Assembly: GCA_028532985.1 (NCBI GenBank)
Contig: JANCIK010000012.1
Location: 2,232,001-2,296,000 of the forward strand
Reading direction: 5' to 3'
Length of the DNA stretch: 64,000 nt
Source of the DNA: Stropharia rugosoannulata
Taxonomy: Eukaryota; Basidiomycota; Agaricomycetes; Agaricales; Strophariaceae
Within the stretch, counting starts at the first letter, position 1; the number at the start of each line of letters is the position of its first letter. This document shows, in pieces, positions 4,052 to 25,276 of the stretch. The notes beneath the pieces are model-generated. The model had not been told where the DNA came from, searched no databases, and saw only the letters and a program-made list of their open reading frames with translations. Made by a program: the position numbers and the translations under genes.

Positions 4052-4705
4052 TGTTTAGCTTTTGTTAGGGTCTTTACTGTGAAGTGTATTGTGAATCATA
4101 GAAGTTTTGGATAGCTTCTGGCCACCGGGTCATTTGGAGAGCTCAGCGGGGAGTCAGTGCAACCGTGTACGAAAACTCGCGCTGTAGTGTTTTGTGAATT
4201 GAGACTGCACCACCGGGTGAACAAGGTTCTGGATAGCCTCAGCGGAATAGGACTTTGGACAGTCCCAGCGGAACGACTTTGGATAGTCAGCGGAGCGAGG
4301 CACAATTGGGAATACCAGCTTGTGTGAGCATCTGCATCGGTCACTGGACCTCAAACCCACTCAGCGGAATAAGCCCCGCGGAGCCACCATCAAAACTATA
4401 CATTACTATCGATACCCTGCGCTCAGCAGAGGTCGCCCAGACATTAATCTGAGACTTCTAGAATTAAACCCCTCCTTAAAAACGAACTTGCAGGCACTGT
4501 ACAGCAGACATCCATCTGGACAGAACTTACGAGACTCTCAAACATCACAGTCTGCTCAGCGGAGAGGACCAGGAGAAGCGTAGACATCTATAATCCGTTT
4601 AGCTGAAGAGCGTCGCTCGATCTAAGGGATAGGATCTCGCTCCGCTGGGGTTGTGTGTGTTTGTGTTTCTTGTGATTCGAGTCTAGCCCCGCGGCAGAAC
4701 TCTCA
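4052..4705 (+). repeat. gypsy A 5' LTR, 3' portion only
   Basis: This 654-bp stretch corresponds base for base to 19968-20621 with one substitution. It ends CTCTCA directly before the primer-binding site. The missing first 764 bp (equivalent to 19204-19967) should lie left of the copia insertion, outside the window. It contains seven copies of CAGCGG or its complement. Confidence 0.92.
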
Positions 4706-4725
4706 TCTGGAGCCCACCGCGAGGG
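4706..4725 (+). promoter_or_regulatory. gypsy A primer-binding site
   Basis: TCTGGAGCCCACCGCGAGGG follows the LTR end. The same 20 bases occur at the LTR edge of gypsy C (26943-26962, minus strand), the best evidence that this is a functional primer-binding site. After a two-base TC spacer, TGG matches the complement of a tRNA CCA end; I could not assign the tRNA. Confidence 0.8.
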
Positions 4726-4748
4726 ATAGGTTCAGAAATCTCATGTAG

Positions 4749-6839
4749 TGTTTCGGGGACCACGGCTTAGCGCCTATTACAAAACATTTCAAAATTTCAA
4801 ATACAACGGGGACGAGTAACAAGCGAGGCAAATTTCCTGCACCATCGTCGCTAGCAGAACCAGCGGAGGCTAGACCATCATTTGGTATATTGCCTCCAAG
4901 CGGGCGATCGACTAGGAGCAAAAAAGGCGCTGAGCTTGTGGAACCATTGGTGATTACACCTACTCGAGATAGAAAAGCGAAGAGGAAAGCAAGGGAAGAG
5001 GCGTGGCTACAGATAGAAATGCAGGATCTTGCTCAGCGCGTACCAGGAGCGCTTACAGAGAGTGACTCAGAGCGGGAGGACGGGCCCAGCGGATTCTGGG
5101 GACCGCCTTCTGGAATTGAAACAGACGACCGCTCAGCGGACGGAGACATTACGCTTGAAGTTGCACCATTTGGCTCATCAGATAGCCAAGCTACTCAAGA
5201 CACACCTCCTCCGTTTTCGGAAGTATTCGAGACTGCTAAGAGATCCGCTCAGCGGACGACAGATAATAGTGAGAGTGAGGCCGAGCGCGTGGCCAGAGAT
5301 ATATTTGAAGGAGAATTGTCAGACCTTTCCACAAGTGAACACGAACCGCCCCCTGAAATTATCACCATGCCTAAGGAAACATCTATGCCTGTGCGCGGAG
5401 CGCGCGGTGCACCAAGCTTCGACCCCTCCGCTGAGCGTGATGAACTCCCACGCTACTTCGAGGACTTAGAGGACTGGTTCAAGCGCGCTGAGGTGACGGA
5501 GGATGATGAGAGGAGAGGCTATGTAATCAAATATGTACCCATGCAGACAGTGGAGGAGTGGAAGAATTTACCAGGCTATGACACCAAGAGTTACGCTGAG
5601 CTGAAGAAGATGATCCTCAATGAATATCCTGAGGTGATCAGTATTCAGACGGGGTCCATCGCGCGCCTAAAGAAGCTGTGCAAGGAGAACCAGCGCATCT
5701 CGGAGGAAGACCTCCAGGTGCTGTTGGACTTCAAGCGGGCATTCTTAGCGGAGGCAGCAAAGTTGACCAAGGCGCCTACCTTGCTGGCCAATCATACGCT
5801 GGTGACCTACTTCACCAACAGTCTCACAGCGGGGTTCAGGGAGAGGTTGTTTAACAAGCTGGATATTGACTACACTACGAGAACGTCGTTTGACAAGTAC
5901 CTAAAGGAACGCAATATACCCTTTACGGCGCCGGCGGGGATTCAGGTGGAAGCGCGGACTGAGGACATGTATCCGCTGAAGCAGGTGGCGGAAATGGCAG
6001 AGCAGATGGCGCGCACCAAGAACCCTAGTACTTCGCTCAGCTTGAGTCGAGACTCAGCGGACGGGCTCATGCCTGTGCCTGCCATCAAAACCGAGTCAGC
6101 GGAGGTGCATACGCTGCGCGGGGAGATTGAGGACTTGAAGGGTTTTGTAGCGTCGTTTAAAGATACGTTGTCGCTGGTAGAAAAGACGGTGTCGAAGTCA
6201 AAAGAGACCAATAAGAAGGAGTTGGAAGATATTCTGCGCAATGTAATGTCGTCGCGGGCAGCGCCTGTCGCTGCGCCAGTCCAGCCAGCAGTACCTATGA
6301 TGCCAATGGGAGGACCAGGTTTCAGCGGAGCGCCGCCGCGTCCGTTTCAATACCAACAGCGACCTGAACCGAGGTGCTTCTATTGTAAACAGACGGGACA
6401 CATCATAGCGGAGTGTATTGTGAGGCAACAGGATCTGTCCGCTGGGAAGATAATCATTATGGAAGCTGGAAGGCTCCAGCTGCCAGATGGATCGTCATTA
6501 CCTTGGGACCCTTCGCGTGCTATCAAAGAACGTGTAGACGAGTGGCATAAGAAGAATGGGCCGCCAGCGCAGCAGACCTACATGGCGCCGGTACACCCAG
6601 CGTACATGGGCACTCCGCCGAGCATGGTGTACGCCCAGGTCTACCAACCAGTCAGCTCTCTCGATGAGACTTATGAAGAGCAAATTCGAACGCTGCAGCA
6701 GGAGCTGGACAGTCGGAAGGCGTTTTTAAAAGAGCGCTCAGCGGTCAAGACGCCAGAGGAGGTGATAGAGGAGCAGCGGCAGCTGATCGCGACTATGAAA
6801 GCAGAGCGGGATGCAGCGCTGAGCCAGGGTTTCGATTGA
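4749..6839 (+). CDS. gag: gypsy A Gag (capsid/nucleocapsid)
   Basis: Gag would form the intracellular particle that packages element RNA. The frame is open from 4749 to the TGA at 6837-6839. There is no ATG in frame until 5016, so the true start is uncertain: 5016, a non-AUG codon upstream, or a spliced leader. The Ser/Glu-rich N-terminus is followed by a helical capsid-like region beginning near APSFDPSAERDELP, shared with gypsy C Gag (APSFDSEKPEELL). A CCHC zinc knuckle follows (CFYCKQTGHIIAEC), then the LPDG...LPW segment also seen in C, and a coiled-coil C-terminus. Many Ser-Ala-Glu/Asp triplets come from the CAGCGGA motif read in one frame. Confidence 0.88.
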   Translation, partial: CFGDHGLAPITKHFKISNTTGTSNKRGKFPAPSSLAEPAEARPSFGILPPSGRSTRSKKGAELVEPLVITPTRDRKAKRKAREEAWLQIEMQDLAQRVPGALTESDSEREDGPSGFWGPPSGIETDDRSADGDITLEVAPFGSSDSQATQDTPPPFSEVFETAKRSAQRTTDNSESEAERVARDIFEGELSDLSTSEHEPPPEIITMPKETSMPVRGARGAPSFDPSAERDELPRYFEDLEDWFKRAEVTEDDERRGYVIKYVPMQTVEEWKNLPGYDTKSYAELKKMILNEYPEVISIQTGSIARLKKLCKENQRISEEDLQVLLDFKRAFLAEAAKLTKAPTLLANHTLVTYFTNSLTAGFRERLFNKLDIDYTTRTSFDKYLKERNIPFTAPAGIQVEARTEDMYPLKQVAEMAEQMARTKNPSTSLSLSRDSADGLMPVPAIKTESAEVHTLRGEIEDLKGFVASFKDTLSLVEKTVSKSKETNKKELEDILRNVMSSRAAPVAAPVQPAVPMMPMGGPGFSGAPPRPFQYQQRPEPRCFYCKQTGHIIAECIVRQQDLSAGKIIIMEAGRLQLPDGSSLPWDPSRAIKERVDEWHKKNGPPAQQTYMAPVHPAYMGTPPSMVYAQVYQPVSSLDETYEEQIRTLQQELDSRKAFLKERSAVKTPEEVIEEQRQLIATMKAERDAALSQGFD

Positions 6840-6844
6840 GTCTG

Positions 6845-8113
6845 ATGAAGGGAAGCACGGGCAGAGTTCAGCATAGTGGCTCTGATAAACCCAAGAACCC
6901 GGAAGACGTAAATAAGAAGCTACCAGTAAGAAGCACACCAAGGACAACTATCGAGGAGGTCGACAGCGGAGATGAGGAAGAGTTCATAGAGGAGATCAGT
7001 AGACAGGCGCCCAGTGGAGCGGAGAAAAAGAAAGTAAGCTTTGCAGCGCCAGCGCAGAAAGTTGGGGAGAATAAAAAGCCAGCGCAGGTACCGTATGTAA
7101 TGGTTCCTCCGCTGCACGTACCAGAAAAGAGTCGGCCGCCTGTAAGAGAGGCGCCGATGCCAGTGCTAGAGAAGAGGAAGCCAGCATATAAGTTGCGCGC
7201 GGCCATTGAGGATGAGGTGCAAGCGGACGAAGTCCTTAAGCGTTTAGAGAGCCAGAAAATAGAGATCACTCAAGGACAATTATTGGGGATCTCTACAGCG
7301 GGGTTTAGGAGGAAGTTTGTCGAGCGTATCATACCGCGCAAGGTTCCGCTGGATGTAAATACCATGCGGGTTTTGCAGCTGGATTATGAGGCAGAGGAGT
7401 GGGAGATGGACGAGGCCATCGCCCAGCTAAATCAGGAGAACGAAGAAGAAGAGTTCATGCGGATGGACGAGCTCCCAGCGGCGACATTCCTCACTTGCAC
7501 GGAGGAGCGCGGTGGCTTACAACCCGGCACAATAATCATGGAGGATCCTTATGAGCAATACATCTCGACGTTACAACCGGGCGAAAAGCCAAAGGGATTA
7601 ATTGTGGCACGAGAGTCGCACCATCTTAAGGCGGTATTTCCGCTGATCAATGGGAAAGGCCGTGCAGAGACTCTGCTCGACAGCGGATCGCAAATAGTGT
7701 CCATGGCGCAAGATACCGCGGAGCGACTAGGCTTAAGCTGGGATCCTGACTTTACCATTAGGATGCAGAGCGCTAACAAACAGGTCGAGTCGACTAAGGG
7801 TTTAGCGCGGAATGTACCTTTTGTGTTCAGCAGACTGACAGTGTACCTACAAGTGCACGTTATCAGCGCGGCTGCCTATGAGGTTCTGTTGGGGAAGCCG
7901 TTTGAGATTCTCACTGAAAGCAATGTGAAGACGCGCGGGGATGGCACAGTGGAACTTACGCTGACGGACCCAAACACTCAGCGGAAGCTAGTGGTACCCA
8001 CGTATAATCGAGGGTGCGGGCCGAAGATACTTCAGCGGGAACCAGATGTGCAGGACTCCAGCGCAGCGGGGGAGCCGCACGCCGACCAGGATTTTCAGTC
8101 CTCGATGATTTGA
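6845..8113 (+). CDS. gypsy A protease ORF
   Basis: This ORF encodes a retropepsin-type aspartic protease that would process the polyproteins. The catalytic motif LLDSGSQIVSM lies in the C-terminal half, followed by a conserved retropepsin-like block ending in LLGKPFEI. The first ATG at 6845 overlaps a second in-frame gag stop as TGATG (6843-6847), just after the gag TGA at 6837. The ORF ends TGA at 8111-8113, overlapping the pol ATG as TGATG. The acidic, proline-containing N-terminal 250 residues have no domain I recognise. A separate protease ORF is unusual; most gypsy elements fuse protease to Gag or Pol. Confidence 0.85.
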   Translation: MKGSTGRVQHSGSDKPKNPEDVNKKLPVRSTPRTTIEEVDSGDEEEFIEEISRQAPSGAEKKKVSFAAPAQKVGENKKPAQVPYVMVPPLHVPEKSRPPVREAPMPVLEKRKPAYKLRAAIEDEVQADEVLKRLESQKIEITQGQLLGISTAGFRRKFVERIIPRKVPLDVNTMRVLQLDYEAEEWEMDEAIAQLNQENEEEEFMRMDELPAATFLTCTEERGGLQPGTIIMEDPYEQYISTLQPGEKPKGLIVARESHHLKAVFPLINGKGRAETLLDSGSQIVSMAQDTAERLGLSWDPDFTIRMQSANKQVESTKGLARNVPFVFSRLTVYLQVHVISAAAYEVLLGKPFEILTESNVKTRGDGTVELTLTDPNTQRKLVVPTYNRGCGPKILQREPDVQDSSAAGEPHADQDFQSSMI

Positions 8114-11100
8114 TGCATCAAGGAGAGGTCGCGTTAATGTTCGAGCGGGATGATAGGACTGGAAAGATAGAGATAGCGGGGTATGCATTGCCAAAGAAGG
8201 GAGGGAGATTTGGCTCCGCTGAGCTGAGAGATGTGTACATGGCTCAAGCTGTGCACGAGGCTAAGATGGAGGATAAAGAGAAAGCATCAATTTATAAGTA
8301 CTTTCAGCAAAAGGAATGGCGAGAAAAAGAGACGGTGAAAGGAGAGCCTAGGGGGCAATTCCGCTCAGCGGACCCCGAGCAAGGCCAGTCAGCGCGGAAA
8401 GGAGTAACTAGAAAGCGGTTAAGTGGTAAGAATGCCACTACCATAACCGTCTTTGCAGGAAAGAAATATAAGCCGGTCGCTGACAAGGTCAGGCCCGTTT
8501 ATCAAGAGCTACCAGAGAAATTCAGGATAGTGAGAGAAATAAAGGGAGATCCGCTGAAAGAAATGCCTCCGCTGACGGTACACCCACCAGAGTTTGTACC
8601 CACGGGAAGGTACACAGCGGAGCGGAAGGAGGAAATAGATAAAGCGCACGGAGGAGATTTCCTGTGGCCAGAGGAGCGCAAGCTAGTACATCAGGTGTTC
8701 ATGCAGCAGAACGAGGCATTCGCGTGGGATGACACGGAAAAGGGGAGGTTTAGAACAGACTTCTTCCCGCCGGTGGATATTCCAACGGTAGAACATACGC
8801 CGTGGGTACTGAAAAATATACCCATTCCGCCAGGCATGTATGAGCGGGTGTGCGAGTTCATCGCTACTAAGATCCGCGCTGGGACTTATGAACCATCCAG
8901 TTCATCATACCGGTCGCGCTGGTTCACAGTAACGAAGAAAGACGGGGTGTCCTTTAGAATAGTACACAGCTTAGAGCCGCTGAACGCTGTTACCATCGCA
9001 CACTCAGGATTGCCACTGGCAGCGGAGAGTTTGGCAGAACACTTCGCTGGGCGTGCGTGTGGCGGAATACTGGACTTGTATGTAGGCTACGACGAGCGGC
9101 TCTTAGCGGAGTCGTCTCGCGACCTAACAACATTCCAGACACCGTTTGGTGCGCTCCGCTTAGTGACCTTGCCAATGGGTTGGACCAATTCTGTACCCAT
9201 CTTCCATGAAGATGTAACTTATATTCTCCGCGATGAAATACCAGACGTCACGGAACCGTACATTGACGATGTGCCTATCCGCGGACCAAAGACACGGTAT
9301 GAATTAGAGGATGGAGGGTATGAGACGATTCCAGAGAACAGCAGAATCAGGCGTTTTGTGTGGGAACACATGCAGAATGTGAATAGGATAGTTCAGCAGA
9401 TGAAGTACTCAGGAGGGACTTTCAGCGGAAAGAAATCCATATTGTGTGCAGCGGAGATTGTAGTGGTGGGACACTTATGTACCTACGAGGGTCGAAAGCC
9501 AGCGCCAGATAAAGTACATGCTATCCTCAACTGGGGGCCGTGTAAGAATGTCAGCAATGTGTGCGCCTTCATGGGTACGATGGGGCTCCTGCGTATTTAC
9601 ATCTCAGACTATGCTAAGCGAGCGGAGCACATACAGCGATTGTTGCGTGGGAAAGAACCCTTCGAGTGGGGGCCAGCGCAGCAAGCCAGTATGGACGCAC
9701 TGAAGGATGGAGCGCGGAACGCACACTGTGTTAAGCCGCTGGACTATACACTGCCAGGACCAATCACGCTGGCAGTAGATACGTCTTGGCGCGCTGTAGG
9801 ATTTTATATCTACCAGCAAGATCCGCTGAACGCGAAGAAGTGCGTGTACACCCGCTTTGGGTCAATTCTGTTAACTGAGAGGGAACAGCGGTTCTCACAA
9901 CCAAAGAGAGAGCTATACGGGCTATTGCGAGCGCTGCAGGCGTGCTATTACTGGCTCATCGGAGCGCGGAAGCTGGTAGTGGAGATGGACGCCAAATATC
10001 TCAAAGGGATGTTGGATAATCCAGGCATGGGACCTAACGCTACCATTAACTGCTGGATAGACAAGATCCTTATGTACCACTTTCAGCTGAAGCATGTAGC
10101 AGGCAAAACGTTTGGCGCGGACGGTCTGTCGCGACGAGAAGGACAGCCAGGAGATGAAGAGTATGAGCACTCAGCGGAGGATGATGACCAAGAAGTAGGT
10201 CCGCTGGAGTACGAGAAAGTGTATGAAGAGGATCCCGATCCGCTGAGTTTAGAAGAGTTCAAGGACCAGATTGACGACCGCGGAGGGTATCTACAAGCTG
10301 GATTCCTCAACGAGTTGTTTGATGGTCCCGCTGAACCAGCTAGAGCGGAGGCACATTCGGTGGACTGCTTCCAGTTAGAACTGGAGCGGGCCAGAAAAGA
10401 GACGAGAGAAGAACAGCGGACAGTGCGTAACTTACTACAGACAGAGGAGGTGTCGCCCGCTCAGCGGGCATACTTAGAGAAATTTGTTCTGGCACATGTA
10501 ATTCCAGAGTCGAAGATAGATGAGTTGGAAGACGAAGAGTACGATGAGCGGAACAGAACATCAGCGGGGAAGGACATGGATGATAAGCTGCCAATGATAA
10601 GGTATTGGCTGCAAAATCCCAGTACAAGACCCAAGGATATGAGCGAGCGGGAGTATCAGAATTTCATCCGCAACACACGAAACTTCTTCTTAGACAAGGA
10701 TGGACGGATGTACCGGCGCTCAGTGGACGAGGCACATAAGCTGGTAGTTGATCCCGCTCAGCGGACGCGCATGTTGCGCGCCGCGCATGACAGTTTGGGG
10801 CACAGAGGCGCATACGCCACACGCAAACTGCTAATGGAGCGCTTCTGGTGGCCAGAGCTGGAGCGGGATGTCTACTGGTATGTCAAGACATGCCATGTGT
10901 GTCAGCTGAGGCAAAAGACGATTATCCAGATTCCGCGGACGGAGACACATACGCCTTCCATCTTCCAGCAGCTACACGCGGACACTATGCACATGTCACC
11001 TGCCTCGAATGGGTATAACTACATAGTGCACGGACGGTGTGCGCTGAGCTCATGGGTGGAAGGTCGTCCGCTGAAGAAAGAGAACGCAAGGGCAATAGCG

Positions 11101-12048
11101 CAGTGGATGTTTGAGGATATTATCTGCCGCTGGGGATGTCTTAGAGAGATAATCACAGATAACGGTGGACCGTTCCGCGCAGCACTCAAGTACTTAGAAA
11201 AGAAGTATGGTATTACAGGGATTACAATCTCAGCGTACAACTCTCAGGCGAACGGAAAGATAGAGCGGCCCCATTGGGACATCAGACAAATGTTGTGGAA
11301 AGCGTGTGGAGGTACCGAGGGTGCACATAAGCGCTGGAGCAAGTTCTTCTACCATGTGCTGTGGGCGGACCGCGTTACAGTGCGCCGCGGATTTGGGTGT
11401 TCACCCTTCTTCATGGTCACTGGCGCGCACCCGATACTACCGCTGGACATCGCTGAAGCGACGTGGCTGGTCAAGTTACCAGATCGGGTACTTACCACAG
11501 AGGAGTTAGTAGGGTATCGTGCGCGCACGCTGGCCAAACATAGGGACACAGTGGAGGAGATGCGTCAGCGGGTGTCGAAGATAAAGCGGGATGCTATCAG
11601 AGAGTTTGAGCGAAAACACTCTGCTAAGATTAGGGACTATGCGTTCAAACCCGGCGATGTCGTACTGATGCGTAACTCTGGCATTGAGTCCAGCTTAAAT
11701 CGCAAAATGTTGGCGCGCTGGAATGGACCATACATTGTTATCGCGTGGAAGGAAGGTGGCGCTTATCTAGTCGCTGAGCTGGATGGGTCGGTGCTGAAAG
11801 ACAAAGTCGCAGCATTCCGCTTAATACCCTACTTTGCCAGGCGCCAGCTGAAGCTGCCAGCGGACTTAGACGATATCATTGATCAAACGCGCGAGAACCT
11901 TAACAAGATGATGTCAGCGCCAGACTACGAGCCGGCCATACCTAAAGACTATATCTTTGATGAACCAGGAGTGGTTTCAGGCAGCGGTCAAGTCTCAGCG
12001 GACGAAGAAGATGATGATGAGGATGGGTGGGCGGAGCCCGATGCTTAG
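8113..12048 (+). CDS. pol: gypsy A Pol: reverse transcriptase, RNase H, integrase
   Basis: A single intact frame encodes RT (LPMGWTNSVPIFHED, active-site YIDDV), then RNase H (LAVDTSWRAVGFYIY, KRELYGLL, VVEMDAK, GKTFGADGLSR), an integrase HHCC zinc domain (HDSLGHRGAYATRKLL ... CHVCQLRQK) and an integrase core with aspartates in LHADTMH and ITDNGGPF and the glutamate in NGKIERPHW. The C-terminal tail has a GPY-like element (RWNGPYIVI). The start ATG at 8113 overlaps the protease stop. No stop or frameshift was found, so the enzyme may be functional, in keeping with the near-identical LTRs. It ends about 120 bp from the stop of a convergent antisense gene. Confidence 0.95.
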   Translation: MHQGEVALMFERDDRTGKIEIAGYALPKKGGRFGSAELRDVYMAQAVHEAKMEDKEKASIYKYFQQKEWREKETVKGEPRGQFRSADPEQGQSARKGVTRKRLSGKNATTITVFAGKKYKPVADKVRPVYQELPEKFRIVREIKGDPLKEMPPLTVHPPEFVPTGRYTAERKEEIDKAHGGDFLWPEERKLVHQVFMQQNEAFAWDDTEKGRFRTDFFPPVDIPTVEHTPWVLKNIPIPPGMYERVCEFIATKIRAGTYEPSSSSYRSRWFTVTKKDGVSFRIVHSLEPLNAVTIAHSGLPLAAESLAEHFAGRACGGILDLYVGYDERLLAESSRDLTTFQTPFGALRLVTLPMGWTNSVPIFHEDVTYILRDEIPDVTEPYIDDVPIRGPKTRYELEDGGYETIPENSRIRRFVWEHMQNVNRIVQQMKYSGGTFSGKKSILCAAEIVVVGHLCTYEGRKPAPDKVHAILNWGPCKNVSNVCAFMGTMGLLRIYISDYAKRAEHIQRLLRGKEPFEWGPAQQASMDALKDGARNAHCVKPLDYTLPGPITLAVDTSWRAVGFYIYQQDPLNAKKCVYTRFGSILLTEREQRFSQPKRELYGLLRALQACYYWLIGARKLVVEMDAKYLKGMLDNPGMGPNATINCWIDKILMYHFQLKHVAGKTFGADGLSRREGQPGDEEYEHSAEDDDQEVGPLEYEKVYEEDPDPLSLEEFKDQIDDRGGYLQAGFLNELFDGPAEPARAEAHSVDCFQLELERARKETREEQRTVRNLLQTEEVSPAQRAYLEKFVLAHVIPESKIDELEDEEYDERNRTSAGKDMDDKLPMIRYWLQNPSTRPKDMSEREYQNFIRNTRNFFLDKDGRMYRRSVDEAHKLVVDPAQRTRMLRAAHDSLGHRGAYATRKLLMERFWWPELERDVYWYVKTCHVCQLRQKTIIQIPRTETHTPSIFQQLHADTMHMSPASNGYNYIVHGRCALSSWVEGRPLKKENARAIAQWMFEDIICRWGCLREIITDNGGPFRAALKYLEKKYGITGITISAYNSQANGKIERPHWDIRQMLWKACGGTEGAHKRWSKFFYHVLWADRVTVRRGFGCSPFFMVTGAHPILPLDIAEATWLVKLPDRVLTTEELVGYRARTLAKHRDTVEEMRQRVSKIKRDAIREFERKHSAKIRDYAFKPGDVVLMRNSGIESSLNRKMLARWNGPYIVIAWKEGGAYLVAELDGSVLKDKVAAFRLIPYFARRQLKLPADLDDIIDQTRENLNKMMSAPDYEPAIPKDYIFDEPGVVSGSGQVSADEEDDDEDGWAEPDA

Positions 12049-12169
12049 AGGCATAAAAGTAGAAAAGGAGACCACAATAGAATGTATTGGGTAAACTAAA
12101 GGAGAAAGGTACAAAAGAAACTAGCTAAGGACCACTTTGAGGCGCTCAGCGGAGTAATTAAGAGGGCCA

Positions 12170-13484
12170 TCACTGCAGCGCGGGCTCCTCAGCGAGGCTG
12201 GTCCCAGTCAAATCCAAGCTGCGCTGTAAAGTCTCTAACTCTTTAACGAGCAGAGCGCGGCGCTTCAGGATGAAGTCAATCTTGTGCAAGTCACAGATGA
12301 TCTCAGCTTGCAAGTCTCCGATGAGACGGCGAGTGACGAGCTCGGACGGGTTCCCGGTGTTCAGCGGTTCCTTAATGAGGTTGGTAGCAGCGTCAAGACA
12401 GGCATTGACCTTGTCATTCGAGAGAGTAAGATTGGTACCTAAAAGAGGATGACATAGTTCAGCGGACGCAACAGAGAAGAGTGAGGGCAAAGAGCGCACC
12501 CTGTACAATGAAAGGGGAATCGGCGAAAGTAGGAACGCCGTCAGCGCCGAGACGGGCCTTCTTAGAGGAAGCATCGTGGAACGGTGTGTCGCGCGGAGAG
12601 CGCCGGTTGTCAGAGGAGCGGAGTGTCATGCCGCGGCCAAGCACACGAGCGCAATGTCCGCTGGCCTCAGTATGCTCCCGCTGACATGGAAGTGAGAAAG
12701 TAACGGGGGAGGGAAAACGCAACAAAACGAACCTGACGAGGAGTGTCGGGAGGAGGCGCTGAGCGCTTCTTCGAGGGACTAGGCTCTGGGGTATTCTGGC
12801 GGCTAGGTACTCCGCCCTCAGTGGCAGCCTCGATCTTGTCATCAAGGGCCATCTTTTTAAGGAGGAGGTACAGCTGCATGTTAGTAATATCTAAAAGAGC
12901 GAAGGAAGTCAGTCACACCTTGTCATCATCAGAATCGGGGGAGGAGGTACCTCCAGGGGCAGAGACCGTCTCAGGATCGGCAGCGGAGCGCGAGAGGAGG
13001 CGAATGTTGCGCTGAGTGGACGGTTAAAGGGATAATAAGAGGCAGCAAGCGCATAGCGTACTGGTCCGGTGGGAGTATGCATGCGCTGACGCGAAGCAGC
13101 GGCTTTCGCTTTTAAAACTTGCTCATGCAGAGTGATAAAAGCGTTGGCAGCGGGAGAGAAAGTGCGGAAGTGGTGATCTGCCTCCAAGGAGGTGTAGATG
13201 GCATGCATCTCGTTGAGAATATCAACAGCCTCGCTGTTATTAATGATACGAGTAATGCCGCCGTGGGGATCACGCCAGCGGTTCTAAAAAGTTCGAGTGG
13301 TCAGCGGAGTAAAAGACCCAGCGGACCAGCTGAGTGTTGTGCATACTAAGTCAATAGCCAGAAGCTCGAGGCTCCCGGTATAGTTGGAAGGCATGGCGGA
13401 AGCCAAGCCCCTGATATCTTGGATTAATGCCAGCTGATGCTTGACATTACTAAAGTTGTACAGCGGAGCGGGTGCATTGGACAT
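12170..13484 (-). CDS. antisense accessory gene acc3 of gypsy A, six exons
   Basis: I assemble six exons on the minus strand: 13347-13484, 13062-13283, 12919-13011, 12733-12873, 12500-12680 and 12170-12438. All introns are GT-AG and 46-63 bp, and joining them keeps one frame to the stop at 12170. One intron has a good branch site (TTACTAAC) before its acceptor. The protein has a helical N-terminus beginning MSNAPAPLYNF, a middle rich in Ser/Pro/Asp with basic KKR stretches suggesting nuclear location, and a helical C-terminus ending SLAEEPALQ. I recognise no family. A TATATATA box lies upstream of the start. The dispersed CAGCGG motif also occurs in its exons and introns. Confidence 0.7.
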
Positions 13485-13519
13485 GAGTGGCTGAGTGATT
13501 GAAAGTATGAGAGTAGGGC

Positions 13520-13529
13520 ATATATATAG
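13520..13529 (-). promoter_or_regulatory. TATA box of acc3
   Basis: A TATATATA run lies about 37 bp upstream of the acc3 ATG (13484), followed on the minus strand by a pyrimidine-rich stretch. This supports an independent antisense promoter inside the retroelement. Confidence 0.5.
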
Positions 13530-13936
13530 GCTCAGCAGAGTGCAGAGGACCTAATGAGGGGCGGCCAGTGGCGAGGAATGTGGCATCCCAGCGGACCAGA
13601 CTCCCAGCGGAGTTATGGTATGAACGCTGGAGGTAGAGACAGGCCACCACATGCAGGCTCGCATAAAACGGGGTGCAGAGCGGGAGCAGTTGATAGACGA
13701 AATGAGATCCAGCGGAGAGGCGCGCCTAGCTGAAAGCGCTCAGCGGAGGCTGATCGTGTGATTACCGCATTTGGAAAAATTATGTCCGAATCAGGTATTG
13801 GCACCGACAATACATAGTGCCTAACTAGATACTTGTCATTTCAAATAGCTATGGAGGAGCCACATGTAGAGCCATTTACTCTGGTTACTGTAACAAGGGT
13901 ATTCTACGGAGTAAACCAAGGAAGGGGCGCAATGCC

Positions 13937-14483
13937 TCAAACATCCTGACATAATCCTGGTCTCAGCGCAGCGGAGAAGGAAGAGAAAAGGGGACAGATG
14001 GGGAAGAAGTCCTCCTGGTAGAAATGCTGGGCGGCATAATGGAGGCGTTGAAAGTGTTCGGTGTGATTAAGAACGCCGTAGTGCTCAGCGTCGTTGGTAC
14101 CACACAGGCGAAGCACAAGTTCGGTGTAATACAGCTGAGCGCAGAGATGAGAAAGAAGCAGTGAATGACAGGTGGACTCGGTCAGCTCTAGGCCGCGCTG
14201 CACGGACTACTCAGTGGAAAGTGCATGGCCAGCGGAGAAAGGGGCTTACGGCGTGATCTTGAACTCGGTTAAGCAGCGGGAGGCAGACACCCATAGGTAG
14301 CTGTTCCTCCACAGCGGAGTCCAGAATATAGTGAAGGGCAGTTATATAGATTCGGCATACTCGGGCTACATCGTGGGGAGGAATGTCACTCAGCGGACGT
14401 CTAGACAAAGCATCGAGACGAAGGATGCGAGGATCGGAATGTGCAAGTAATAAGAGATTACTCTCAGCGGACAAGGAGGGCAT
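13937..14483 (-). CDS. antisense accessory gene acc2b of gypsy A, two exons
   Basis: Exons 14250-14483 and 13937-14197 are separated by a 52-bp intron with GTAAGC donor and TGCAG acceptor; the join is in frame. The product is about 164 residues, mostly helical, starting MPSLSAESNLLLLAHSD and ending GLCQDV. I recognise no domain. A TATATAAT box lies about 30-45 bp upstream of the ATG. It could instead be the 3' part of acc2a if an unseen intron bridges 14567-14470, but the local TATA box favours a separate gene. Confidence 0.6.
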
Positions 14484-14513
14484 GTTGACGTATACGAATA
14501 CAGACAGAGGGAG

Positions 14514-14527
14514 TTATATTATATACG
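14514..14527 (-). promoter_or_regulatory. TATA-like promoter of acc2b
   Basis: The minus strand reads GTATATAATATAACTCCC about 30-45 bp before the ATG at 14483, followed by a CT-rich stretch. This is a plausible core promoter. Confidence 0.4.
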
Positions 14528-14552
14528 TAGATGGTCAGCGCAGTGGACCGCC

Positions 14553-15025
14553 CTAATCAGAGCACACGTCGTCTACGATGAGCGCGGCATCAGGGTCCAC
14601 TTCTTGAACATCGGCTGCAATTCGCTCAGAAGAAGGCAGCAGATGGAATCGCATGCCCAGATGACTGTATCGGTCGAGAACACGTAAGGCGGCATTACTG
14701 AGTAGGCGGGGGTCGAAGTGATCATCGCTGAACTTCTGCTGGGCGCGGGCCTCGTAAAACACGATGGTCATGAGGAACGATAGAAATTGACGATTAAAGT
14801 CAACGAATCTCAGCGGAAGGGTAATACGATCCTGTGGAAAATAGTCAGCGGAGTAGAATCTATGGAAGTAGGCCTTACCAGAGCACGGACAACCGCCTGT
14901 GCGGACTGCAATGGCAAATGGAGCGTGGTCTCAGCGGAGTCTTCGGTGAGCTCAGCATGGACAGCCAGCTGCTTGAGGATGCAGGTGAACTGGCGGGCGA
15001 CGTTGGTACGCTGGTAGCGTTGCAT
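14553..15025 (-). CDS. antisense accessory gene acc2a of gypsy A, two exons
   Basis: Exons 14879-15025 and 14553-14831 flank a 47-bp intron (GTAAGG...CACAG) and join in frame to give about 142 residues. It starts MQRYQRTNVARQFTCILKQL and ends VDDVCSD. The sequence looks like a compact helical protein; I recognise no family. Its core promoter is well marked: TATAAAA at 15072-15079, directly next to a perfect inverted repeat at 15054-15071 and a short CT-rich leader. The same inverted repeat, with compensating base changes, stands upstream of acc1, suggesting shared control. Confidence 0.6.
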
Positions 15026-15053
15026 GACTAAAGGAAGAAGAATAAAGGGTCTG

Positions 15054-15079
15054 TCAACTGAGGACAGTTGATTTTATAG
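15054..15079 (-). promoter_or_regulatory. acc2a promoter: TATA box plus inverted repeat TCAACTG-AGGA-CAGTTGA
   Basis: On the plus strand TCAACTG (15054-15060), AGGA and CAGTTGA (15065-15071) form a perfect 7-bp inverted repeat with a 4-base centre, next to TTTTATAG (minus strand CTATAAAA). It is 29 bp upstream of the acc2a ATG. It could be a dimeric-factor operator or a hairpin at the 5' end of the mRNA. Confidence 0.65.
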
Positions 15080-15558
15080 TGAAGGGGAGAAAGGCCGCTA
15101 AAAGAGGGCCACGGAGCACGTATGGGGAAAGAAGTCCGCTGAGCGGACCTGAACATAGGTTCAGAGAACGGAAGACTTTAGCAGACACAAGGAGAAAAGA
15201 GTCAGGGCAATCAGCATAGCCGAAGCGCGGGGTCAGCAGGGCATGTTGCTACAACGAAGAGAGAAGCTCAGCTGAGAGAGATGCGGGAAAGAAAGGAAGA
15301 TAAGAGATAACAAGGAAAGACGCTTACACAAGGGAGCTGGTGGGCATGACTAGTCTCAGCTGAGCGGGGCCCCACCTGGAAAAAGAGAACTTAGAGGTCA
15401 CACAAAAAGAAGGACAAGAAAAGCATATTTTGAGTATTTCTAAAACAGTTAAAACTACATTACATATGCTAGATAATGTAGACAAGAGGCAGACCACACA
15501 AGAAAATAAAATAAAAGACCAGAAGGCCTGAAGAAAGGAACCCCCAGGGGCAAGCGAA

Positions 15559-18500
15559 CTAAGCGCCCTCCGCACGAGCATCGTCGGTGTCTGCCTCGCT
15601 AGGGACCCGGGAAGGGGTCAAGAAAACGGGGCGCAGCTGAGGGGTAGGGCGAGCGGAGACAGGAGTCTTGCCCTTCGAAGAAGATGCGACAGGAGGAGGG
15701 GTAGGGCCAGTGGAGACCGGAGTCTTGCCCTTTGAAGAAGAGGCGGGGGGAAGAGGAGCACTAGGCTCAGGAAGAGGGGCAGGAGGAAGGTCGGGGGAGA
15801 TCTTCTTACTGGATTTCTTCTTTTTCTTCTTCTCCGCGGAGATGAGGGCGTCGGCGTCGCTTGCTTGGCGGCCCGCAGCATCTTCAAAAACTTGCGACTC
15901 GGTAGCTAAGAATTCCTCGAGGGTGATGGCCTGCTCTGGCTGGGGGGAGGGGATAAAGGTGGAGGGGTCGTAACGGGGATGCTTGGGATCATAAAACTTA
16001 GCGAGCGGGGCAACGACAGCGGGGTCCTCGATAACGACGGGCTCACAGAGCGAGGCATACGCTTCGCGGAGGCGATCCAAGTCCAGACTGCGGAGCGCGT
16101 CGAAAGTCTCACAATCGCGGAAGCGAGGTCCAATAACCAAGCCAGTGGGGAGGGTCAATGCCATTGCCTGCACGAGTAGAGACAGCTCGACCAGCTGAGC
16201 GAAGTAAAGTCGCTCCGCTGCCCTACGCTGCTCCTCCGCCACGCGCGCTTGATCAGAATATGTGCTGAGGCGCGAGAAGCCAGACAAAAGACCTAAAAGG
16301 TCATTGGGAAATAGATGTAAGAAAAATATAATAAGACAAGGGAGAAAAAGAGGGCGTACTAGTCAAAGAAGTGCGGTGCCAGAGAGTAGTGTCCTCGATG
16401 GCCTTGTCCAGCTCCGCGGGTTCCATGCAAAAGAAACACTTCCCCTTTGACTGGGTGCTGCAAGTGCAGCAATTACGAGCCCAACCTCGACAAATGCATT
16501 GATGTAAGCCCTCGTTCATGCGAGTATTGAAGGGGCGGGCGCAGTGGTTGCAAGTCATTCCTTTCTAAGAAAGACAAGGGGACGTCAGCTGAGGGGAACA
16601 AAACAAATACATAAATAAAAAGTAAAATTGAAACTTACCACGATTGCCCCTTGAAGGCGGCGCTCAGAAGGAAGGAGCTCGAGCCCAATAGCGTCTGGCA
16701 GCGGAGTACCGGTGACAGGGCTGCTTTTTGGCTACGGGTGTAAACAGTTAGAAGGTCCGTTAGTGGGATAGCTGCGCGCGGGAAACACAGAGAGACTAGA
16801 GTTGAGCCTGCCTCATAGTCTATAGCTATCAGCGCGCTTTTATGACTGTAAGCGCCTGCACGCACCATATTGCGAGAGGGATCGGTCAGCGAGCTGCACA
16901 GTCTAAAGTGCATAGTCTGGTCATCTGTGCGAGCGATCGGAGAGGCGTAGAACGGTTAAGCACCAGCAAAGTGCGGTGTGAGTATAGCTGAGCGAGTACC
17001 AAGGGCGGTGTGAAGGGCTGTGCGCGCATCTCATGTGCGCGCATCGCAAAGGCAGAATTTGCCTAAGTCCACACATCATGTGACCGTGGCGGCGCGCATC
17101 AAAAGACGCGCAAAAGCCCGAGGGAATGAACGACATGCGCGCAGCGAATGCCAAGGGATCAGGACACTCGAAGGGAAGCCCGGATGCGATGCGCGGACCT
17201 TTGGCTGCGCGTTGCTAGTATTTACTTTACCTTATTATTAGTACACATGCACGCATCGCATATAAACCTGTATCCTTGTCTATAGTAATTTAAGCAATTG
17301 TCTACCCACTAGATCTGTGTGCTGGGTTCCGTCCCAGGCCGTCAGCAGGCTGTGTTTAGCTTTTGTTAGGGTTTTAACTGTGAAGTGTTTGTGAATCATA
17401 GGAGTTTTGGATAGCTTCTGGCCACCGGGTCATTTGGAGAGCTCAGTGAGGAGTCAGTACAACTGTGTACGGAAACTCGCACTGTAGTGTTTAGACTGTG
17501 AGACTGCACTGCCGGGTGAAAGACTTTGGAGAGTCTTGGGATTGTTGGACTTTGGAGAGTCCGCGCATCGTACAAGGTCACCGGACCCGGAAGTGCGCGC
17601 AGCGAAGCCGTTCACTAAAACAACTTATTTCATTCATCATCTTGCCTAGCACACGCCACTAGCAACCGGGCTCTATCCGAGATTTACTAGAATTAAACCC
17701 CTCCTTACAAACGAACTTGCAGGCACTACTTGCTATTACAAAGACTAGAGGACACGAGGTGCGCGCATCGCACGCCCAGAACGGGAACCAGAGCAGAGCA
17801 TAGATTATACTACCATTTAGTTGAGGGCATTCGCTCGATCTAAGGGATAGGATCTCGCTCCGCTGGGTGTGTGTGTGGGTTGTGTTTCGCGATTTCGAGT
17901 CTAGCTACGCAGTAGACCTCTCACCGGCCAGTGCCATTTTAGCGGAGAATACAGGAGGGAGAACGTCGAGAATGGGATAAGTCGACTTGTAGGCCACCTT
18001 ATTTAAATCAGGCTTGAGGTTCGTGATCTCGGGGATTCCGCTGGACACTAGAGCCGCCGGGGGACCGTCAGAAGAAGGAGGGACGACCAGCTCAAAACCC
18101 GGAGTGTCCCAATCGGACTCAGCAGCGGCAATGGCGGCATTGGTAGCAGTGGCCACAAGAGCAGCGGGGCGCTGCCGCTTGGTGGGCTTGGGACGGGGCG
18201 CAGCGGTGGGCACGATAACAACAGGCGGGGTAGGAAGGCGTTTACGCTTGTCTGGACGGACAGCGGAGGGAGGGGGCGAGGCGTTGCGGTCTGAGGCCAT
18301 GTCGACGTCGCCGGACAAGTCAATGACGTGCTCAGCGTGGGGCGTCTCTGGACGACCGATGAGAGGGCGGGGAGCGGCAGTGTCTGAACCGTCCCAGGCG
18401 GTGGGGAAAGCTGTCTTGAAGTACTCGATGTAAGATTCCAGCGGAGCGTGTCCGCTAGTGAGCCACATAGCGTCAGTGGGGAGCTCTTCGATGTCTCCGC

Positions 18501-18801
18501 TCGCCAGCTGGACTTCGGCGATGTAGGACAGCAGAATGCAGAGCTCGCGGACGCCGGGGTGATAGAGACCATCGGAAGGATAGCGGGACAGGTGGTGTTC
18601 GACAGCGGAGGTGATCGCACTCTTGAGCTCGCCGAGGCGCGTGGTGTCCGAAGAGGAAAGGCGGTCGCGGCCAGCGAGGGTTTCAAATTCCGTATAGACG
18701 AGAAGAGCGGGGCGTAGACGGCGAAAACGATCCTGGTCGTCCAAGAGACGCTCGGAGCGCTTGTAGTCGCGTTGACGGCGGTCGAAGTTGCGGAAAGCCA
18801 T
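15559..18801 (-). pseudogene. antisense accessory gene acc1 of gypsy A, split by solo LTR B
   Basis: Coding parts are 17924-18801, 16639-16708, 16360-16564 and 15559-16292. The first two were one exon before the LTR insertion: removing the LTR and one CCGG copy gives 948 bp, a multiple of three, and the frame continues through two GT-AG introns (74 and 67 bp) to a 628-residue product. It has a charged helical N-terminus, two basic clusters resembling nuclear signals (DKRKRLP, KPTKRQRP), a Cys-rich module near residues 320-362 (CNHC, CRGW, CCTC, CFFC) likely to bind zinc, a coiled-coil segment, and a Lys-rich, Pro-rich tail. As it stands, the 5' part would end in the LTR at 17905. No family is recognised; the makeup suits a nuclear nucleic-acid-binding protein. 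Confidence 0.72.
16713..17923 (+). repeat. solo LTR of gypsy family B, 1211 bp
   Basis: It begins TGACAGGGCTGC and ends CTCTCA, like the gypsy A LTR (TGACAGGCCTGC ... CTCTCA), and much of it aligns with LTR A: TTTGCCTAAGTCCAC, CAATTGTCTACCCACTAGAT, TTTAGCTTTTGTTAGGGT and AATTAAACCCCTCCTTA are shared. It is flanked by CCGG at 16709-16712 and 17924-17927, a 4-bp target duplication (5 bp, ACCGG, if the final A is counted). It lacks the CAGCGGA repeats of A except one, and carries GCGCGCATCGC-like repeats instead. It is what remains after LTR-LTR recombination. Confidence 0.9.
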
Positions 18802-19165
18802 GACGGTTCAGTAGAGAAAATAAAGAAGGCAGGTGGTCTGCGAGGAGAGGAAGGAAAAGAATGAGGGCCAGAAGGGAGCAAGGTCCCAGGTTCTTAACCA
18901 AATACCGGTTCAATGGAGGAATCTTCTGGAAAATAAAAATACGTTGGGGCGGCGTCAGACAAACTTTCAGGCAACCTACATAGAGAGCGGGTTTAGAGGT
19001 AGCGGAAAGAAACACAAAATAGGAAAAGAATATCCTTAATAAGAGAAAGAACCAGATAACAATGAAACTGGCCAGCGGAGATGCGCGAAAGATTTAAAAA
19101 AATAGCCAAATAGGCGCTGGGAGATCTGAAAATAGAACAAGGGACGCTAAAAATAAATGCCGAAG

Positions 19166-19183
19166 TTGACTGAGGACAGTCAA
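19166..19183 (-). promoter_or_regulatory. inverted repeat upstream of acc1: TTGACTG-AGGA-CAGTCAA
   Basis: This is the counterpart of 15054-15071: the same AGGA centre and a perfect 7-bp inverted repeat, but with both arms changed in step. A TA-rich run (AAAATTTTTAGTGA on the plus strand) stands in the place of the TATA box. It lies 365 bp upstream of the acc1 ATG, so an untranslated leader, perhaps with an intron, is expected. Confidence 0.6.
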
Positions 19184-19190
19184 AATTTTT

Positions 19191-19203
19191 AGTGAGGGGG
19201 AGA
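19191..19203 (+). promoter_or_regulatory. gypsy A polypurine tract
   Basis: AGTGAGGGGGAGA lies directly before the TGACAGG start of the 3' LTR, as expected for the primer of plus-strand DNA synthesis. Its position after the antisense genes shows that they lie inside the element. Confidence 0.8.
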
Positions 19204-20621
19204 TGACAGGCCTGCGTCTACTTCAAGGCTGTAAGTGGCCACAGCGGGCGGTTCGGGTCGAAGTGCAGGGGTCCAGCGGAGCAGTGACTAGCCTGGTCAG
19301 CCGTCTCAGTGCTCAGCGCGTGCATCACAAATCATCACGCGTGTGCTCAGCGGGCAGTTATGTGGGGTTCAGCGGACTGTACAGGCCATAAGTACACAGT
19401 TGAAGTACCGTAACAGCTGTCAGCGGAGCACATAACGGTTACTGTCGTCCCAGCGGAAGGCAGGAGTACAGCTGAGCGGAAAATATCAAAGGCGACGAGC
19501 AGGACTGTGTGTAGACGGCGTCTCAAAAGGGCTCAGCGGAACACATCACGAAGGCGAAATTTGCCTAAGTCCACTCGTCAGGTGACCGTGGCGTGCGTGC
19601 TGGAGCATGTGATGCCCGAGGGAATGCATAATGCACACAGCATGGACTCCGCTGGGGAACTTTGGCAGCGGTAGCCAGGCCTCGATGACCAAGATGGAGT
19701 CGCGCAGTGGAGTTTAACGGCGTCTCTCGGCGGAGGCCGGTAACACAACAGGATCAGGTCGCGCTCAGCGGAGTAGCCATCAAGGCGCCCAGCGGAGGCA
19801 CATGCGCTCAGCGGACCTTTGGTCCGGCGTTGCTAGTATTTACTCTCCACCTAAATTAGTACACAACACGCATCTATATAAACTTGTAATTGTAACTACG
19901 GAAATCAAGCAATTGTCTACCCACTAGATCTGTGTGTTGGGCTCTGTCCCAGACCATCAGCAGGCTTTGTTTAGCTTTTGTTAGGGTCTTTACTGTGAAG
20001 TGTATTGTGAATCATAGAAGTTTTGGATAGCTTCTGGCCACCGGGTCATTTGGAGAGCTCAGCGGGGAGTCAGTGCAACCGTGTACGAAAACTCGCGCTG
20101 TAGTGTTTTGTGAATTGAGACTGCACCACCGGGTGAACAAGGTTCTGGATAGCCTCAGCGGAATAGGACTTTGGACAGTCCCAGCGGAACGACTTTGGAT
20201 AGTCAGCGGAGCGAGGCACAATTGGGAATACCAGCTTGTGTGAGCATCTGCATCGGTCACCGGACCTCAAACCCACTCAGCGGAATAAGCCCCGCGGAGC
20301 CACCATCAAAACTATACATTACTATCGATACCCTGCGCTCAGCAGAGGTCGCCCAGACATTAATCTGAGACTTCTAGAATTAAACCCCTCCTTAAAAACG
20401 AACTTGCAGGCACTGTACAGCAGACATCCATCTGGACAGAACTTACGAGACTCTCAAACATCACAGTCTGCTCAGCGGAGAGGACCAGGAGAAGCGTAGA
20501 CATCTATAATCCGTTTAGCTGAAGAGCGTCGCTCGATCTAAGGGATAGGATCTCGCTCCGCTGGGGTTGTGTGTGTTTGTGTTTCTTGTGATTCGAGTCT
20601 AGCCCCGCGGCAGAACTCTCA
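19204..20621 (+). repeat. gypsy A 3' LTR, 1418 bp
   Basis: TG...CA termini; preceded by the polypurine tract. The last 654 bp match the 5' LTR remnant with one change. It carries about 18 CAGCGG/CCGCTG motifs, the densest part of the element. A TATATAAA-like stretch (CATCTATATAAAC, near 19873) may be the LTR promoter. It is followed by ACGGGATACC, so the target duplication should start ACGG. Confidence 0.92.
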
Positions 20622-23600: not shown

Positions 23601-24511
23601 CTTAAAATATACACCCGCCACACCAGCTATATGGAGGTCGTCCCGAAATAAGACCAATATACCGCTCTGACTACGAGGCTTCCTATGGCGCCTGCTACAT
23701 AACTCCTACAAATTAGGGAACTACTGGATCAGAGTCCCAAACAGAGAGCACTGGGCTGTATGCTCCAGATGCGACAATGCAACAGAAGACATAGATCACA
23801 TCCTCTTCGCATGCAACGTGTCAGGCCAAAGAACTGTCTGGAGGGATGTCGAACGTCTATGGTCCCACACAAACTTACCCTGGACACAACCCTCCCTTGG
23901 ACTTGTACTGGGCAGTGGTCTTACCAAATTTAAGCAACCAGGCACCAAACGCCCTGCACCTGGCATAAATAGACTATACAATATACTGCTGACAGAAGCC
24001 GCTCACTTTATCTGGAAGATACGTTGTGAGTGGCGCATACAAAACGATGCACAAGAAGACAAAATACTCCCTGAAGCGGCAGTCATGAATAAATGGTCTG
24101 CTCAACTCCAACGACGACTCCTACTAGATAGACTACACACGGACCACTCCCGCTATGGCAGCAAAGCCATCTGCAGTAACCTTGTATACAATACTTGGGA
24201 GAAAATACTGACAAACATAGAAGACATTTCTGATGACTGGGTCATCAATACCGGGGTTATAGTGGGTATTAAAGGGCACCGTCCTCCGGGACGGAACCGC
24301 TAGTCCAAGACTAGCCGCCCTTTGGAGTCCCACACTACTAGCTAAGGCTGTGTGTGCGTAAAAGCATTCCTCGGGGTGGATATGATTTACACGTAGGGGC
24401 ACCCTGCCCTTACACATATCTAGCTGGTAGAAGGAGTACCCCCTGCCACAGCAGAATACTGCCTCCCTACCATTAAAGCTCCACCAAAAAAAAAAAAAAA
24501 AAAAAAAAAAA
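20622..24511 (+). mobile_element. LINE (non-LTR retrotransposon), 3' part
   Basis: This is the 3' part of a LINE cut by gypsy A; its 5' part should lie beyond the left edge. It encodes reverse transcriptase, an RNase H-like region and a zinc-binding C-terminus, and ends in a run of 26 adenines (24486-24511). The poly(A) junctions with gypsy C protease sequence at 24512, so the LINE inserted into gypsy C. RT plus RNase H suggests the Tad1-like group of fungal LINEs, which I infer without a database comparison. Confidence 0.9.
20623..24303 (+). pseudogene. LINE ORF2: reverse transcriptase, RNase H-like region, zf-RVT
   Basis: The RT contains FKKGDKTLISNYRPITVL, DQAGFIKGRKI, the GARQGDPLSCLIFDLAIE block and the active site ATLFADDTSVY. 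A region with an RNase H-like pattern lies near 22950-23350. The end has a CCHC module typical of LINE RTs (CSRCDN...DHILFAC). One in-frame TGA (23668-23670, where CGA would fit) divides an otherwise continuous frame that runs to 24303, consistent with a CpG C-to-T change. The 5' end is cut by the gypsy A LTR at 20621/20622; a chance open frame continues into the LTR, but the first in-frame ATG is at 20701. Confidence 0.88.
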
Positions 24512-25276
24512 GTATTGGACTACCGTATCAGTTACTACTATTGTACCCGCTTGACCTATTTCTGAGTCGTGTGGCAAGATACAATAGTTGGTACACTGCG
24601 GCAAGTCTGCGATATATATTTCTACCCGCTTTTGGGCGTCTGATATTATATCTAGGCTTGGTTCGACATCTAGCTCTATTGCTGGCTCAGAAGTGCTAGG
24701 TAGTACTTCTTGACTAACAAATGATAGACTCCCTTCCGGATCAACCGGTTTATTTATTTCCCCGTCACTTTCTATATACTCATCATACCAATCTTTCCTG
24801 TTCTCGTCCTCTGTGATGTTTACATTGGACGCGACTGTAGGCTGGACTGGTACTCTGACTTTAGAAATATGCCAGGTTAATTCTTTTAATAAAGCGGGCG
24901 AATTGCCCAGCAATTGCCCCACTGTAGTACCTACCGGCGTATTTAATATTAAGTCTACTACGTCTTTTGTTACTGCGCTAGCTTCCACTGGTGCTCTGGT
25001 CTGATAAGCGGGTATATGTTTCTCTCTCGGGACATCCCTCCTATGAACTTCGTTCAAAGGCCTTACGTCCACGAAAGGTACCTCTGCCACTTGGCTAGGC
25101 GGAGGGTTCACAGTTTCCTCTATACTTCTCGTTTGTGCAACCGGCTTCTTTCTAGCGTTCATAACAACTTCGACTATTTTATTTTTATTTTTCATCTTTG
25201 GCTGTTTTTCTAATTTGTCCTCCGGGGCTGATAAACCTACTAAGCTAGCCAACTTATTAGGGTCAGCTGATCCCAT
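24512..25276 (-). pseudogene. gypsy C protease ORF, N-terminal part
   Basis: Starts at 25276 (MGSADPNKLASLVGLSAP), 11 bases after the gag TAA. It resembles the N-terminal half of the gypsy A protease ORF, with the shared theme of an acidic, Pro-rich segment followed by GTIVV near the cut (A has GTIIMEDPYEQY). The catalytic part is lost at the LINE insertion; the apparent poly-Phe tail is the LINE poly(A) read in reverse. Confidence 0.8.

Follow-up and report, generated by a model that had tools for sequence, protein, structure and literature searches.

The window, a stretch of 64,000 nucleotides of the Stropharia rugosoannulata contig JANCIK010000012.1, contains at positions 4052–20621 a long terminal repeat (LTR) retrotransposon, hereafter the family A element, through which the short word CAGCGG is scattered. 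Gag followed by Pfam matches for protease, reverse transcriptase–RNase H and integrase zinc-binding domains, together with the LTRs, is the layout of a Ty3/Gypsy LTR retrotransposon; on pol, Pfam gives no separate match for the reverse transcriptase domain proper. The parts of the element are as follows (sites are occurrences of CAGCGG or its complement CCGCTG).

4052–4705, plus strand: 5' LTR, truncated at its 5' end, 654 bp with 1 mismatch to 19968–20621; 7 sites
4749–6839, plus strand: gag open reading frame (ORF) with one CCHC knuckle (below the Pfam cut-off); 13 sites
6677–8113, plus strand: pro ORF, gag-asp protease; 12 sites
8008–12048, plus strand: pol ORF with RNase H and integrase zinc-binding domains (Pfam); 29 sites
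12049–15150, minus strand: region after pol, holding the multi-exon antisense gene 2; of its 26 sites, 23 are element-sense
15151–16712, minus strand: 3' part of antisense gene 1, with a coiled-coil-like/basic exon (15559–16245) and a cysteine-rich ORF (16304–16564)
16713–17923, plus strand: solo LTR inside gene 1, assigned to sister family B, bearing the B word GTGCGCGCAT and one CAGCGG in 1.2 kb
17924–19146, minus strand: 5' exon of antisense gene 1 (MAFRNFDRRQ..., KRKR-type basic stretches); 8 sites
19204–20621, plus strand: 3' LTR (TGACAGG...CTCTCA), with a purine tract in front of it

The complete A LTR is about 1.42 kb long (19204–20621). Given the LTR start in the 3' copy, the 5' LTR at 4052 is missing about 760 bp at its start; the outer edges of the element show no matching target duplication. 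Another genomic A copy, L046, is continuous over window positions 12399–16712 and 17923–20624, and the segment 16713–17923 is thus an insertion. It is 93–94% identical to both LTRs of one copy of family B, begins with TGACAGG, ends with CTCTCA and has CCGG on both sides. Judged by these features, it is a solo LTR of that sister family. The antisense gene-1 cassette (15151–19146) is only partly alignable to a further A copy, L047 (73–75%), whereas the preceding DNA is 94.5% and the following LTR 92.5% identical. On this comparison, A copies swap the gene-1 block as one cassette. The original prediction, made from the window's sequence, took the whole of 4052–20621 as one element. This holds for most of it, but not for the B solo LTR or for the word-poor, exchanged part at 15151–16712. 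In the latter (1.56 kb), CAGCTGA is found 8 times (both strands counted) and CAGCGG 3 times. A separate family with the word CTCAGCTGA was considered and rejected, as the genome-wide count (475 versus 377 in the control) points to a merely local trait of the exchanged cassette.

CAGCGG or its complement occurs 135 times in the window, and 114 of these sites lie within 4052–20621 (87 CAGCGG, 27 CCGCTG). The hand count of about 110 was therefore close, with an expectation of 11.3 (standard deviation 3.0, maximum 18; first-order Markov model, 100 simulations) instead of about 8. No hexamer of the element comes near this enrichment except those overlapping CAGCGG. The remaining 47.4 kb of the window contain 21 sites (0.44 per kb); the neighbouring copia and long interspersed nuclear element (LINE) stretches have two and one, respectively, exactly as predicted. 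The consensus of the sites is YCAGCGGA(G), with A at position 7 in 72% and T or C at position 0 in 73%. CAGCGGA itself is present in 79–82 copies (79 versus 5.2 expected), and no single-base variant exceeds 16.

Beyond this consensus the flanks show little conservation. The sites thus arose singly and not as duplicates of a longer unit, apart from the seven LTR sites repeated in both LTRs. The spacing is irregular (coefficient of variation 1.09), with no periodicity at 3, 10.5, 147 or 165 bp. Tandem duplication is accordingly absent, as had been predicted. The claimed spread over LTRs, gag, pro, pol and antisense genes was also found, at 5.7–12.9 sites per kb in the main parts: 10.0 in the 5' LTR and leader, 5.7 in gag, 7.5 in pro, 7.2 in pol, 8.4 in the post-pol region, 6.5 in 17924–19146 and 12.9 in 19147–20621 (3' LTR). 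The densities of the B solo LTR (0.8) and of 15151–16712 (1.9) are much lower. In the 48-Mb genome, CTCAGCGGA occurs 1471 times, versus 280 for the reversed control. Eight genomic loci, each picked for one extended site and hence an upward-biased sample, contain 1.0 CAGCGG per kb besides the chosen site.

Codon usage had been named as one explanation that would undo the prediction. With the protein sequence fixed, 1000 synonymous shuffles yield on average 2.45 sites in gag (maximum 9; 13 observed), 2.9 in pro (maximum 9; 12 observed) and 4.9 in pol (maximum 14; 29 observed). These shuffles, the Markov controls and the unconserved flanks rule out that the A word stems from codon usage, from base composition or from tandem duplication.

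The genome was searched with pol (48 Mb, 20 contigs). Of 455 candidates, 44 were scored, and all copy numbers are lower bounds. At least 15 pol copies are 95–100% identical (family A) and at least 28 are 89–91% identical (family B), and one further copy, L035, is A-like and CpG-depleted. The pol proteins of A and B are 89–91% identical and their DNA 79%. Per pol locus of about 6.1 kb, CAGCGG is found 30–59 times in the 15 A copies and 4–10 times, near background, in 14 B copies, those with sequence letters. The word is thus common to the other family A copies, a comparison that had been proposed with the prediction.

In family B the place of the A word is taken by TGCGCGCA, found in LTRs and pol as well as in the antisense genes. 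TGCGCGC/GCGCGCA occurs 17–27 times per pol locus in the same 14 B copies (the 8-base palindrome is counted twice) and 2–5 times in all but two of the 15 A copies. These two, L022 and L023, have 13 and 17, and 9 and 14 of these sites lie within the first 1.5 kb of the locus; we attribute this excess to B-like DNA at the flank. Densities of the word in one B copy are 13 per kb in the LTRs, 2.4 in gag, 4.0 in pol, 7.3 in gene 2 and 5.3 in gene 1 (palindrome again counted twice). In B pol, TGCGCGC on both strands is present 16 times against a maximum of 11 in 1000 synonymous shuffles, and CAGCGG 3 times against a mean of 2.2. Genome-wide, GTGCGCGCA is found 1893 times versus 342 for the reversed control. 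Where the window's A sequence can be aligned to the B solo LTR, 12 of 13 A sites are missing from the latter, several of them opposite gaps, and the B word stands at or beside a few of the corresponding places. In pol, amino-acid identity between A and B is 79% at motif codons and 92% elsewhere. The B copy examined (L039, L040) is itself nested in a family C LTR (97–98% identical to window positions 27858–28823).

A mutational or compositional artefact, by way of codon usage, CpG effects or biased repair, would have to account for this exchange of words as well. The A word does contain a CpG, and L035 is poorer in CAGCGG and richer in CAGCAG and CAGTGG. Nevertheless, the pattern is not reproduced by synonymous shuffles, Markov controls or the reversed genome control. 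Within one and the same genome the sister family uses another word, single-base variants show much weaker enrichment, and counts outside the element are low. Such an artefact is highly improbable. In L035 (CpG observed/expected 0.62), CAGCGG, CAGCAG and CAGTGG occur 22, 20 and 13 times, compared with 45, 6 and 6 in the window copy; this looks like decay from cytosine methylation.

For other families, a uniform scan of 7-mers was made, each stretch being compared with 40 second-order Markov simulations (null maxima 5.1–6.6). Outside pol, the sequence covered comprises one B copy, two further A copies, one copy of the L045 family and two family C stretches. The z-scores are 19–24 for A, 15 for the 3' DNA of B, 10.1 for L045 (TTTCCGA) and 9.3 for the window's family C (null maximum 5.1). 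Marginal values were obtained for L043 (5.6, null maximum 5.5), L042 (6.8, null maximum 6.1) and the C pol stretch L048 (6.2, null maximum 6.2). The marginal word of L042, a distant Gypsy element, is GCGCTTA and is largely clustered toward the 3' end of the stretch. L041, L044, L049, L050, L051, the LINE, the copia, the window's palindromic stretch and the flanks are all within the null range. The count of short words against background and against other elements, suggested with the original prediction, gives its highest values for A. In the third family, represented by the one copy examined (L045), pol contains 9 TCGGAAA, where shuffles reach at most 6, and gag/pro contains 6, where they reach at most 5; L045 pol is 39% identical to that of A. 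The fourth family lies downstream in the window, and its word is probably CGGGYTA.

24470–28830, minus strand: family C Gypsy element, gag at 25291–26769, LTR at about 27858–28823, word CGGGYTA / CCCGGTATAA, 7-mer z-score 9.3

By pairwise identity, not by a tree, and with L049 left out, the pol sequences of A, B, C, L045, L050 and L051 form one group (37–53%; A and B 89%), while identity to the distant Gypsy elements L041–L044 is 21–29% where alignable. Since L050 and L051 are without a word, the habit is not universal within this group. L049 has a pol match with one stop, and the longest ORF extracted there aligned to no other pol. Next to family C, positions 28811–39350 form a nearly perfect 10.5-kb inverted repeat (99.4%); a DUF6729 ORF and an ORF with a 3'-5' exonuclease domain lie in its arms. 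This is either a true palindrome or a fold-back assembly artefact.

The orientation of the sites bears on the molecule at which the word is read. It might act on genomic RNA, as dispersed signals for packaging, dimerisation or nuclear export by which Gag or an accessory protein sorts the RNAs of a family into its own particles. Such a role would suit the sites outside gag-pol, which are chiefly element-sense even in the antisense genes (23:3 in 12049–15150, 17:2 at the 3' LTR, 53:8 in L047), and family C, where 15:2 are in sense. Dispersed packaging signals are described for RNA viruses (PMC6281560); like the present words, they are, as presented there, many short recognition motifs along a genome, but they sit in RNA stem-loops. 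Here, the 87 sense sites are predicted to be no more unpaired than with shuffled flanks (0.395 versus 0.386, standard error 0.020), and complements are enriched too. In A pol, with the strands taken separately, CAGCGG occurs 17 times versus 3.1 and the complement 12 times versus 1.7; neither is reached in any of 2000 synonymous shuffles. The complement is weaker in gag and pro, where its count is reached by 6 and 29 of 2000 shuffles, respectively. Orientation thus varies from 17:12 in A pol and 11:7 in L045 to mostly sense in C, and the B word is palindromic. Furthermore, the Gag zinc knuckles of A and B are nearly identical. Action on RNA is unlikely. Three observations favour binding at the DNA level: the enrichment of the complement, the palindromic form of the B word and a predicted RNA pairing at the sites no different from that obtained with shuffled flanks.

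Variation among copies was measured by defining motif columns in one copy and determining diversity in the remaining copies. Motif columns have 0.56 times the expected variation in A (12 references, median p 0.010, worst 0.113) and 0.52 times in B (14 references, median p 0.001, worst 0.004). The lower variation at the motif sites supports selection but does not prove it.

As the words differ between A and B, the protein reading them is expected to differ likewise. Gag is 85% identical between the families and its CCHC box differs at two residues. With Gag knuckle and pol nearly alike, both are poor candidate readers. The integrase-related role originally offered as an alternative is disfavoured on the same ground, since the proteins are nearly the same while the words differ.

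The best candidate reader is antisense gene 1 with its cysteine-rich exon. Its reading in L046, with introns placed by eye, gives three exons: the first has basic stretches and contains a frame change in that copy, the short second one is rich in cysteine, and the third is coiled-coil-like and includes a run of lysines. The window's cysteine-rich exon has the pattern CX2C-X14-C-X8-CX2C-X7-C, and its six cysteines are invariant in four aligned copies (three A-type, one B). From this exon and from basic, nuclear-localization-signal-like and coiled-coil-like stretches recognized by eye, we infer that gene 1 encodes a DNA-binding protein. Genome-wide there are 92 matches to the cysteine-rich exon, of which 26 are 81–100%, 5 are 66–67% and 61 are 35–47% identical. 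The exon lies 3' of pol in 14 of 15 A copies (67–100% identical to that of the window) and in 23 of 28 B copies (35–45%), with no cross-over between A and B. Gene 2, whose longer ORFs are 94–98% identical within A and mostly 63–84% between A and B, remains a second candidate.

Most likely, by analogy with the VANC proteins of Arabidopsis, the word is a self-address at the DNA level. More specifically, family-specific words may be addresses on double-stranded DNA. A nuclear protein encoded by the element itself, which for A and B is probably the gene-1 product, would bind them and so keep a family's own copies expressed. This explanation is favoured, but only tentatively. Under it, related Gypsy families would each spread a distinct short DNA word over the whole element. 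The protein made from some copies would bind many sites across all copies of its own family, and this binding would counter silencing or activate transcription, as proposed by analogy with VANC. The word of each family would diverge in such a way that its protein serves its own copies alone.

Alternatively, the words could be sites for host factors (transcription activators, insulators or replication factors) that were recruited repeatedly, with a different factor for each family. No element-encoded reader would then be necessary, and families lacking gene 1 would be covered. CGG, which is the half-site of fungal zinc-cluster activators, is present in three of the four words. For host factors, however, a few promoter copies would be expected and not about 110 sites across gag and pol at the amino-acid cost seen at motif codons. 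The rest of the window, moreover, is at about the level of a random hexamer. Recruitment of host factors is rather doubtful.

The word could also drive its own spread within the element population if it made template switching, recombination or integration more frequent among copies that share it. In Neisseria and Haemophilus, DNA uptake sequences are a precedent: a short exact word on both strands, in coding and non-coding DNA, which marks the whole bacterial genome for uptake. Here, by contrast, the word marks one transposon family within a genome. An additive and position-free distribution and the swapping of the gene-1 cassette between A copies would fit self-spread. Template switching, however, requires long homology and not a 7-mer, and this explanation is quite improbable.

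Several observations weigh against an address read by an element-encoded protein. At the level of the word, other CpG hexamers are as invariant as the motif columns in 7 of 27 cases (A) and 5 of 25 (B); the single-copy control GGCGAC gave a non-significant 0.53 in A, and the control ratio for B was unusable. Certain variants of the A word are also elevated, to three to five times expectation (CAGCGGG 16 versus 3.2, CAGCAGA 13 versus 3.6), and the window's gene-1 cassette is written partly in CAGCTGA rather than CAGCGG. Of three B pol copies, with 15, 14 and 15 GCGCGC and shuffle maxima of 15, 16 and 14, two stay at or below their maximum, and the 7-mer z-score of B pol alone is 6.5 (null maximum 6.2). 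A and B are two clades only, so that the match of reader and word is a single evolutionary contrast.

At the level of the reader, gene 1 is variable among A copies sharing the word (exon 3 48–100%, cysteine-rich exon down to 67%). No antisense gene-1 match is present on the 3' side of the listed TCGGAAA-family and family C loci (lists compared by eye); gene 1 is thus no general reader. No Pfam match above the cut-off was obtained for five gene-1 ORFs, of which three come from the window, one from L047 and one from L039; a single sub-threshold match, to FYVE_2, has an E-value of 1.3. The cysteine-rich exon has no convincing solved relative (best E-value 0.065), its predicted model (predicted local distance difference test, pLDDT, 51) is unusable and too poor for a fold search, and a protein database search with exons 2–3 returned no homologue.

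The self-mark that had been proposed is thus supported in part: the word is family-private, exceeds synonymous shuffles in three ORFs and is swapped in the sister family; its invariance is matched by some CpG words. Taken together, the sequence comparisons support a family-private mark under selection.

The parallel to VANDAL elements and their VANC proteins, also drawn in the original prediction, holds for the logic and for a fast-evolving, element-encoded candidate. Binding by VANC and demethylation have been shown, and VANDAL motifs are described as mainly non-coding and expanded by tandem repeats (PMC5735166; see PMC10398659). As far as described there, both systems have a short family-private word in many copies per element, related families with different words, and an element-encoded protein that evolves fast while the replication proteins are conserved. 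In contrast, VANDALs are Mutator-like DNA transposons, and the present elements are LTR retrotransposons with a Gypsy-type pol. The VANDAL motif is mainly non-coding, whereas here there are 5.7–7.5 sites per kb in gag, pro and pol compared with 8–13 in LTRs and post-pol DNA. It grows by tandem repeats, and the A word by point changes, with no tandem arrays. VANDAL motifs are arrayed one way; of the present words, those of C and of A outside gag-pol run mostly one way, A pol has 17:12 and L045 11:7, and the B word is palindromic. A VANC domain (DUF1985/DUF287) gave no Pfam match above the cut-off in the five gene-1 ORFs. The A/B system is therefore no member of VANDAL/VANC, but it may work similarly.

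Antisense genes have precedents among LTR retrotransposons. One is reportedly brtn of Botrytis Boty. Maize Grande, rice RIRE2 and Silene Retand carry such ORFs between pol and the 3' LTR, described as lacking clear relatives, and some of the plant products are nuclear (PMC7264820). The position is the same here. As far as that account goes, the cysteine-rich exon in the antisense gene and the element-wide DNA word that accompanies it are unlike those elements. The literature searched, with PMC12859917 and PMC12844716 among it and most subscription papers outside it, yielded no account of LTR retrotransposons that carry a family-private word over their entire length.

It is conceivable, though doubtful, that the elements belong to an LTR-retrotransposon lineage with a self-recognition code: words of 7–10 bases in LTRs, reading frames and antisense genes, a co-evolving zinc-protein reader on chromatin, and families that split by a joint change of word and reader. 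How transposons escape silencing without waking their rivals is little known beyond the Arabidopsis VANDALs. Sister families with near-identical replication proteins but different words, present in many copies in one genome, make reader and address accessible to binding assays. If the explanation is true, the protein-coding DNA of a retroelement can be reshaped to hold a dense signal at the DNA level, even where this costs some amino acids.

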